From: Aurantimonas endophytica
GTDB lineage: Bacteria; Pseudomonadota; Alphaproteobacteria; Rhizobiales; Rhizobiaceae
DNA: 64,000 bases
Direction of reading: 5' to 3'
Assembly: GCF_014196845.1 (NCBI RefSeq)
Contig: NZ_JACIEM010000007.1
Location: 186,001-250,000, forward strand
The notes beneath the pieces were generated by a model. The model saw only the letters and a program-made list of their open reading frames with translations. It had not been told where the DNA came from and searched no databases. Of this stretch, positions 21,195-22,355 are shown in pieces (the stretch's first letter is position 1; every line of letters starts with the position of its first letter). Position numbers and translations under genes: made by a program.

Positions 21195-21216
21195 GCCGTT
21201 CGAATTTCCGATCATG

Positions 21217-21264
21217 CCCGACAGCGATGATCGCGCCGTTTTGCGGCGGCGTGTCCCTGTCGGG
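21217..21264 (+). promoter_or_regulatory. Structured leader of rpmB
   Basis: CCCGACAG (21217-21224) pairs perfectly with CTGTCGGG (21257-21264). Inside it CGCCG (21234-21238) pairs with CGGCG (21244-21248) around a TTTTG loop. The structure lies in the predicted rpmB leader and ends 27 bases before the start codon. It may be a regulatory fold, possibly an L28 autocontrol site; that role is inference only. Confidence 0.5.
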
Positions 21265-21291
21265 TTCTAGGTTAAGCTGAAAGGTGATCTG

Positions 21292-21582
21292 ATGTCACGC
21301 GCCTGCGAACTGACCGGCAAGGCTGTCCAGTCCGGCAACAATGTGAGCCACGCGAACAACCGTACGCGTCGCCGCTTCCTGCCGAATCTGTGCAACGTGT
21401 CGCTGATTTCCGACGCGCTCGGCCAGCGCTTCCGGCTCCGCGTTTCGGCCTACGCGCTGCGTTCGGTCGAGCATCGCGGCGGTCTCGACGCGTTCCTGAT
21501 CAAGGCCGACGAGGCGGAGCTGTCGCAGCGCGCCCGCCTGCTCAAGCGCCAGATCGTCAAGAAGGTCGCCACCGCAGCCTGA
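21292..21582 (+). CDS. rpmB: 50S ribosomal protein L28
   Basis: Large-subunit ribosomal protein bL28, 96 residues, the usual length in alphaproteobacteria. [33 protein letters not shown] is the conserved start in overlapping pieces; the C-terminal helix is basic. AAGG lies eight bases before the ATG. The next gene, a queuosine-precursor transporter, follows after 77 bases on the same strand and may share the transcript. Confidence 0.98.
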
Positions 21583-21633
21583 TCCGGCTCCGGCGCCTTT
21601 CCGACCCTATCTGCCGGGCCCTCGGGCTCGGCA

Positions 21634-21662
21634 CTGGTTCCATCACCCAGGCTAAAAAAATG
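21634..21662 (+). promoter_or_regulatory. preQ1-I riboswitch overlapping the yhhQ start codon
   Basis: CTGG (21634-21637) pairs with CCAG (21647-21650) as stem P1. The loop reads TTCCATCA, then ACCC with the expected ligand-pairing cytosine at 21646. After GCT comes a run of six A (21654-21659). The next three bases ATG (21660-21662) are complementary to CAT in the loop (21641-21643), forming P2 of an H-type pseudoknot. Aligned by hand to the Bacillus subtilis queC aptamer, the stem, the GGTTC, the ACCC, the T before the A-run, the six A and the P2 position fall in the same register; loop L2 is shorter. Both the weak AGG ribosome-binding site and the AUG are inside the fold, so preQ1 should repress translation. 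Confidence 0.85.
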
Positions 21663-22355
21663 ACATCCCTGCGCAGCTATATCCTGCCCGTGGCAGCGAT
21701 GACGGCTATCGTCCTCGCGTCCAATGTTGCCGTGCAGTTTCCGGTGTTTGCCGAGATCGGCGGGCTGCAGCTCGCCGACCTTCTGACCTTCGGCGCCTTC
21801 ACCTATCCCTTCGCGTTTCTCGTCACCGACCTGACCAACCGTCGCTATGGCCCGGCCGTGGCGCGCCGCGTGGTCATGGCGGGCTTCGCGGCAGCGGTTC
21901 TCTGCTCGATCGTCGTGCCGCCGGTCCTCTACGATCTCGGCCTGCTCGAATATGCGACCGCCGCCGACCGCCTGCTGCGCATCGCACTCGCCTCCGGCGG
22001 CGCATTCCTCGCGGCGCAGCTCCTCGACATCGCGGTGTTCAACCGGCTGCGGCAGGATAGCTGGTGGCGGGCTCCGGCGGCTTCGTCGGTGAGCGGATCG
22101 GTGGTCGACACCTTCCTCTTCTTCACCATCGCGTTCGCGCCGGTCTTCGCCTTCGTCGGGCCGAACGACGGCTTCGCGCTGGAGGCAGCGCCGTTGCTGG
22201 GCGTGTTCGCCACCGAGGCGCCGCGCTGGGTCTCATGGGCGATCGGCGATTTCGGCATGAAGCTGGCGATCGCCGTGCTGGCGCTGGTCCCCTACCGGAT
22301 CATCATGCAGCAATTCGTGCCGTACCGTCCGGTCGACGCCCGCACAGCCGCCTGA
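21660..22355 (+). CDS. yhhQ: Queuosine precursor transporter (YhhQ/VUT family)
   Basis: A 231-residue inner-membrane protein with six or so hydrophobic helices, of the YhhQ (DUF165) family, which imports the queuosine precursors preQ0 or preQ1. FPVFAEIGGLQLADLLTFGAFTYPFAFLVTDLTNRRYG (in overlapping parts) is the family core, and SSVSGSVVDTFLFFTIAF is the second conserved block. The ATG directly follows seven A in the upstream riboswitch and has no free ribosome-binding site. The preQ1 aptamer agrees with the transport assignment. It converges on cobT. Confidence 0.93.
   Translation: MTSLRSYILPVAAMTAIVLASNVAVQFPVFAEIGGLQLADLLTFGAFTYPFAFLVTDLTNRRYGPAVARRVVMAGFAAAVLCSIVVPPVLYDLGLLEYATAADRLLRIALASGGAFLAAQLLDIAVFNRLRQDSWWRAPAASSVSGSVVDTFLFFTIAFAPVFAFVGPNDGFALEAAPLLGVFATEAPRWVSWAIGDFGMKLAIAVLALVPYRIIMQQFVPYRPVDARTAA

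Follow-up and report, generated by a model that had tools for sequence, protein, structure and literature searches.

A putative preQ1-I riboswitch predicted to use the yhhQ start codon as a pseudoknot strand in Aurantimonas endophytica and its family

The translation start of the queuosine-precursor transporter gene yhhQ in Aurantimonas endophytica raises the question of whether the AUG itself might serve as one strand of a ligand-binding RNA. In the present study, this question was addressed in a window of 64,000 nucleotides, the whole stretch of DNA that was analysed (contig NZ_JACIEM010000007.1, positions 186,001 to 250,000), and all positions below refer to this window. Positions 21634-21662, directly 5' of yhhQ and reaching into it, read CTGGTTCCATCACCCAGGCTAAAAAAATG, in order CTGG, TTC, CAT, CAC, CCAG, GCT, AAAAAA and ATG (Table 1). 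The initial annotation had described CTGG/CCAG, TTC, CAT, the A-run and the AUG as parts of a preQ1-I aptamer; direct reading of the sequence found each of these parts in its place, and this observation is confirmed to the base. A run of seven A occupies 21654-21660, with its last A forming the A of the start codon, and the element occurs as a single copy in its own genome. The encoded protein scored above the curated cut-off of TIGR00697 and below that of NF008406; its closest named relatives belong to Aurantimonas, Jiella and Fulvimarina (75-89% identity), with Mesorhizobium, Agrobacterium and Rhizobium among the others. The hairpin abutting the aptamer on its 5' side probably does not belong to the switch but marks the end of the rpmB unit, because the sequence there is not conserved among relatives, as indicated by the low-information flank columns described below.

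Table 1. Features at the yhhQ translation start, with positions in the window
Feature	Position	Strand	Evidence or remark
rpmB (L28), upstream neighbour	21292-21582	+	Profile match
GC-rich 9-bp hairpin abutting the aptamer	21612-21633	+	RNA fold of 21612-21680
P1 5' strand, CTGG	21634-21637	+	Pairs with 21647-21650 in minimum-energy folds of window stretches
L1 loop, TTC	21638-21640	+	U6, U7 and C8 in E. coli crystal numbering, by register with the E. coli leader
P2 5' strand, CAT, start-codon complement	21641-21643	+	E. coli equivalent C9 C10 U11 (CCU)
L2, CAC	21644-21646	+	C21646 corresponds to specificity base C14 and A21645 to A13 (proposed gatekeeper), by register and the roles described in PMC10622847
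P1 3' strand, CCAG	21647-21650	+	Family block and RNA fold
Putative Shine-Dalgarno AGG (AGGA in most relatives)	21649-21651	+	8 nt before ATG, AG within P1; first linker base G in 130/134
A-rich L3	21654-21659	+	A21659 corresponds to E. coli A27, described as the preQ1-contacting base
yhhQ start codon ATG, putative P2 3' strand	21660-21662	+	Occupies the place of E. coli A28 G29 G30
yhhQ (Vut_1/YhhQ), queuosine-precursor (preQ0/preQ1) transporter	21660-22355	+	PF02592, E 2.4e-27

The simplest explanation for these 29 bases would be that a hairpin arose by chance at an ordinary A-rich translation start and that no riboswitch is present, as might be suggested by two results obtained from single sequences. 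First, the stability of the fold was not exceptional (z of -1.07, -1.18, 0.22 and -1.14), and the program, which yields P1 for stretches of the window, cannot predict knots. Second, no match was found in the window with Rfam 15 at the gathering score; the in-register match of RF00522 at 21628-21667 reached 10.7 bits (E 8.6 on 161 bases), far under the cut-off of 39 bits. The Rfam check proposed in the initial annotation thus returned a match in the expected register, and this match remained below the gathering score. The annotation had also regarded the lack of a covariance-model hit as a refutation, and this test proved invalid: the E. coli yhhQ leader has been crystallised with preQ1 as a class I type III switch (PMC10622847), and RF00522 found nothing in this proven leader (231 bases) up to E 10. 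RF00522 leaves type III uncovered, and its low score is uninformative for the window because it misses the E. coli switch too. In addition, RF00522 gave no match over the genome of A. endophytica at E 10, while the control of this search responded in all 14 genomes and exceeded the cut-off in one. No PreQ1 match was obtained with Rfam on 15 loci, a run that was insensitive, since the leader of the window itself was included and its 10.7-bit match did not appear.

The comparison of relatives gave a much clearer result. Leaders of yhhQ were collected from the family (Rhizobiaceae in GTDB), with a match in 143 of the 151 genomes searched, and the expression CTGG-TNN-CAT-N(1-3)-CCCAG-N(1-7)-A(5-9)-TG was present in 134 of these 143. 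When L1, the P2 strand and the first base of the start codon were freed, the same 134 leaders matched, and every one of them read CAT. The alignment of homologous yhhQ starts suggested in the initial annotation therefore keeps the CAT complement, the A-run and the ATG together, and leaders retaining the A-run and the AUG yet losing the CAU complement are not the picture among the matching family leaders. A looser pattern, with a free third base in CAN and a free first base in NTG, matched 265 of 297 family genomes, with CAT facing ATG in every match listed; the reversed control appeared in one genome (G095) among the matches listed. Across the block, most columns of the 122 standard-length elements carried 1.8-2 bits and five variable columns 0.8-1.4 bits, values that are inflated at the positions fixed by the search expression. 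The flanks of these elements have diverged, with 0.1-0.6 bits in the eight adjacent columns and 0-0.2 bits in the 22 columns further upstream. The top P1 pair G21637-C21647 and C21646 were invariant, although the expression itself demanded these bases, and the equivalent of A13 was a base other than A in 12 of the 122 elements. The family-wide block is far beyond chance, and against the 265 matching genomes and the conserved block within diverged flanks, a chance hairpin has a negligible probability.

The element was absent from nine of the 143 leaders (L009, L109, L149, L155, L188, L197, L200, L201 and L202), although L200 retains a decayed copy. Four of these leaders (L197, L200, L201 and L202) come from genomes of 1.1-1.5 Mb, in which the element before yhhQ is decayed (L200) or absent; L184, from a genome of 1.9 Mb, retains it. 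Two copies were observed on contigs C30 and C32 of genome G1267, the only genome with two matches among those listed, which could reflect a duplicated yhhQ or a mixed assembly.

Outside the family, the element was hardly ever seen. The search at the level of the order matched 19 of 21 family genomes and one of 376 others, and this single match (L072 in G316) was rejected, as it is followed by a frame of 20 codons that is not yhhQ. At the level of the phylum, a pattern of the TTC form was present in 11 of 17 family genomes and in none of 381 others, and a loose form of the block was found in none of 20 order and class leaders outside the family. Under stricter filters, a covariance model of the element returned three matches in 385 genomes of the class, namely the window and two further loci (L207 and L208) that share GGATAAAAAAATG only and were discarded as chance.

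Reportedly, the three types of preQ1-I switch were defined by McCown in 2014. The E. coli K-12 yhhQ leader reads TTGGG TTC CCT CAC CCCAA TGGTTAATC AAAA AGG TACAAT ATG, and the window loop falls into base-for-base register with it, as listed in Table 1. Both elements precede a gene of the yhhQ family and share an H-type layout, L1 UUC, L2 CAC with the specificity C, an A-run as L3, a U-A ceiling pair and a P2 of three nucleotides. Five differences were observed. First, the 3' strand of P2 is AUG in the window, whereas in E. coli it is the AGG of the Shine-Dalgarno sequence. CCT/AGG and CAT/ATG differ by one compensated pair, as the middle P2 pair is C-G in E. coli and A-U in the window, so that P2 of the window has three pairs with only one G-C and is weaker. 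The E. coli ATG lies 6 nt after the knot and the window ATG inside it. Second, the Shine-Dalgarno sequence of the window is at the P1/L3 junction, with a linker of 3 nt compared with 8 in E. coli. Third, P1 of the window has U-A for one G-C: at the second P1 position, the E. coli-like set (27 rows) has G-C and the family of the window (129 rows) has U-A, where the contrast between the pairs, not the row count, is the evidence, because the expressions fixed those letters. Fourth, the AUG form is confined to the family of the window within the searches made. Fifth, 65 of the 134 family members carry a UGN L1 together with a putative fourth P2 pair into codon 2.

The E. coli-like form, GGGTTCCCT..CCC..AAAGG, was found in 27 of 30 loci outside the class of the window, which are the best-scoring matches of the search rather than a random sample, and in 29 of 32 when E. 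coli K-12 and L272 are included; among 39 distinct further leaders, it was seen in L272 only. The outer P1 pair, free in the expression, is paired in 20 of the 27 rows as T-A, A-T or C-G. Type III, described as nearly confined to gamma-proteobacteria (PMC10622847), is characterised by UU flanking the P1 5' strand and AC before the P1 3' strand, both present in the window, and by AAGG as the P2 3' strand. Here, this strand reads AAUG, with its complement CAT in all matching family leaders. Because the AAGG strand of the type is replaced, the element appears from its sequence to be a start-codon-masking sister variant of type III and not a canonical type III switch. The general features of preQ1-I, that is P1, a pyrimidine loop and an A-rich L3 leading to P2, were recovered in the register, the table of pairs and the P1 fold of the window, with the knot being predicted, and the loop is less pyrimidine-rich in the TGN members of the family.

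Other known switches are less similar. The preQ1-I type II elements of B. subtilis and T. tengcongensis, with which type I is grouped here, share the H-type knot, the A-rich L3 and the AC before the P1 3' strand. In types I and II, unlike the window element, P2 buries the first bases of the Shine-Dalgarno sequence or favours a terminator, and type I binds two ligands (PMC11625349); their loops are also described as larger (PMC10622847). SAM-II of Alphaproteobacteria is likewise an H-type knot, in which P2 interferes with translation initiation (PMC9373788), but its aptamer and ligand are different and its knot takes the Shine-Dalgarno sequence, not the AUG. Taken together, the loop register and the compensated P2 pair support the preQ1-I class proposed in the initial annotation, and the placement is refined in that the closest relative seems to be type III rather than preQ1-I in general.

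Conservation of this kind might also be expected for a protein-binding RNA operator or a ribosome standby signal that has nothing to do with preQ1, such as one tied to rpmB. The sequence is extremely conserved and shows few structural substitutions within the family, and rpmB lies 5' of the element in all 79 loci tested (some of them duplicates). This explanation is very unlikely, given that the block reproduces the loop and geometry of a crystallised preQ1 switch of the same gene family with compensated differences, and that its spacing from rpmB is not fixed, at 30-178 nt in 76 loci and 494-549 nt in three. A shared transcript of rpmB and yhhQ is likely, because simple scans of 21200-21700 found no sigma-70-type or terminator-like site. 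In four relatives (L191, L192, L193 and L194), a terminator-like hairpin with a T-run was seen by eye 0-5 nt 5' of the element; it leaves no promoter room, so that yhhQ in these relatives would need read-through or a promoter further up.

The metabolic background of the host is consistent with preQ1 as the ligand. The A. endophytica genome (97.85% complete) encodes Tgt (470 bits) and QueF (110.5 bits), and no QueC over the cut-off was found in it, the weak matches reaching 31.5 compared with a cut-off of 150.3. Because Tgt and QueF are present and QueC is under the cut-off, this organism probably imports preQ0 and then reduces it, and precursor import is the expected source of preQ1. Therefore, preQ1 would be a sensible feedback signal for the importer.

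If the aptamer and the pseudoknot are real, the question remains which part of the initiation region is the target. Regulation might act mainly through the Shine-Dalgarno sequence or a general blockage of the 30S subunit, with the AUG pairing being incidental. The AG of AGG lies within P1, and the type I Can switch is described as regulating without strong Shine-Dalgarno burial (PMC11625349). We consider this explanation unlikely, although it is the most serious of the alternatives. CAT was retained in every matching leader even when the strand was left free in the search, and the bases facing the Shine-Dalgarno sequence point the same way. In 130 of 134 elements, G follows CCAG, and the base opposite, 5' of CTGG, is C in only one of these 130, at a C content of 35% in the flank; in the remaining four, the base after CCAG is C and the facing base is G in all four. 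The statement that AGG is mostly inside P1 thus applies to AG of AGG(A), while the next G is outside and almost never has a C opposite. Because the base facing this G avoids pairing, P1 seems to be limited to four pairs where AGG is used, as if the hairpin were tuned against further burial of the site.

The four elements without AGG (L012, L029, L101, which shares a contig with L048, and L187) all keep CAT and ATG, which again argues against a Shine-Dalgarno-centred mechanism. The ATG is in frame with yhhQ in 130 of 130 elements with AGG, and out of frame in three of the four without it, where an in-frame ATG follows at a distance of 13 nt and lies 8 nt beyond the GGA of AUGGA. In these three elements, AUGGA could be the Shine-Dalgarno sequence of the later start, in which case P2 would again cover a Shine-Dalgarno sequence. 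L187 has a further in-frame ATG at +7, and in L012 the ATG is in frame with a GTG at +15. For S. meliloti metA, the AUG beside the SAM-II switch turned out not to be the start that is used (PMC9373788).

The pairing also appears to extend beyond the start codon. Three types of L1 were observed in the 134 elements, namely TTC (69), TGG (53) and TGC (12). The loop TGC is accompanied by G at +4 in 12 of 12 elements and TGG by C in 53 of 53 (Fisher 2.5e-13, kinship ignored). With TTC, the first base of codon 2 is A, C or T and never G (0/69, where 15% is usual; Fisher about 1e-5, kinship ignored). These patterns suggest a fourth P2 pair into codon 2 that exists in two mirror forms if the second loop base is G and is avoided if it is U, and such covariation is not expected if the AUG pairing is incidental. 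Likewise, AGG is never followed by G in the E. coli-like set (0/29), and the avoidance of +4 G with TTC fits the E. coli structure, because C8 is engaged there in a triple with A28-U11 (PMC10622847). Three Jiella leaders outside the 143 (L032-L034) are counter-cases, with TTC and +4 G. In a quick tree of YhhQ (106 rows, leaving out L281, L009 and L057, which have no long protein, and the out-of-frame L029 and L048), the best tree requires at least 12 changes of loop type, but well-supported branches force only three changes of TTC versus the rest. The sign test on independent pairs was not significant (median p 0.25 over three pairs, none opposed to the expected direction). Together with the CAT complement and the A-U replacing C-G in the middle pair, this covariation supports the proposal in the initial annotation that the AUG would be a strand of P2.

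The UGN members deserve separate consideration. The equivalent of U7 is G in these 65 leaders (e.g. L058-L062), and in E. coli A27 contacts preQ1 while U7 locks and positions A27 (PMC10622847). Because U7 is replaced, the UGN members may bind differently or prefer another ligand. For L058, a TGG member, the folding program favoured a hairpin shifted in register, with L1 paired to L2, over the P1 of the model; this hairpin may be a ligand-free form or a warning about the TGG branch. It is conceivable, although we hold this view only tentatively, that the family carries a preQ1-I subtype with A(-1) in contact with the ligand and the A(+1)-U pair as the ceiling of the pocket; this subtype could flip to a Shine-Dalgarno form, and among the UGN members its pocket would be rebuilt, maybe for another precursor.

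Herein, we propose a translational OFF switch that belongs to the preQ1-I class, has type III as its nearest known type and would lock the AUG upon ligand binding, and we assign this reading a probability of roughly 0.86. The ligand, the direction of regulation and the exclusion of the ribosome are proposed by analogy with the E. coli switch. Without ligand, only the weak P1 hairpin of 4 bp would form, leaving the ribosome free to use AGG(A) and the yhhQ AUG. When the precursor is plentiful, the RNA sensor very probably folds around the start codon: preQ1 would dock between P1 and the loop, the A-run would lie in the P1 groove, and CAU would pair with AUG, stacked directly above the ligand. 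The aptamer would then hold the start codon, and the importer would no longer be translated, with the upstream rpmB remaining untouched. One compensated P2 pair, C-G to A-U, would thus separate a Shine-Dalgarno mask from a start-codon mask.

A second type of leader was also noticed. Rhodobacteraceae-type yhhQ leaders (L064, L065, L066 and L070; L248, L249, L251, L257 and L258) share another block just 5' of the ATG, with the approximate sequence AAG-U..-CCG-CNAC-CUU-..AAAA-CGG; by eye, a second H-type knot resembling preQ1-I can be drawn from it, with P1 AAG/CUU, P2 CCG/CGG, AC before the P1 3' strand and an A-run. No PreQ1 match was found in these leaders in an Rfam run that is insensitive to weak matches.

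Start codons hidden in ligand-dependent hairpins are known, for example in the add switch (PMC10907184). For preQ1 switches, a 2024 review tabulates Shine-Dalgarno occlusion, transcription termination and domain docking as platforms (PMC11625349, Table 1), and a word search of its main text found neither "start codon" nor "AUG". Among the matches listed for literature on rhizobial or alphaproteobacterial preQ1 switches and on start-codon masking, titles and abstract openings did not describe a pseudoknot in which an AUG strand closes the ligand pocket, and an earlier mention in McCown 2014 or 2017 is possible. If the proposed mechanism is true, ligand read-out and start-codon masking would be one act, and the target of the expression platform would have changed between the ribosome-binding site and the start codon through a single compensated pair within one riboswitch class. 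A compact switch of this kind, unreported by Rfam in the window, would be present in 265 of the 297 sampled family genomes, with natural variants of both masking kinds within one family, and would make it possible to test cleanly whether initiation is blocked when only the AUG is hidden.
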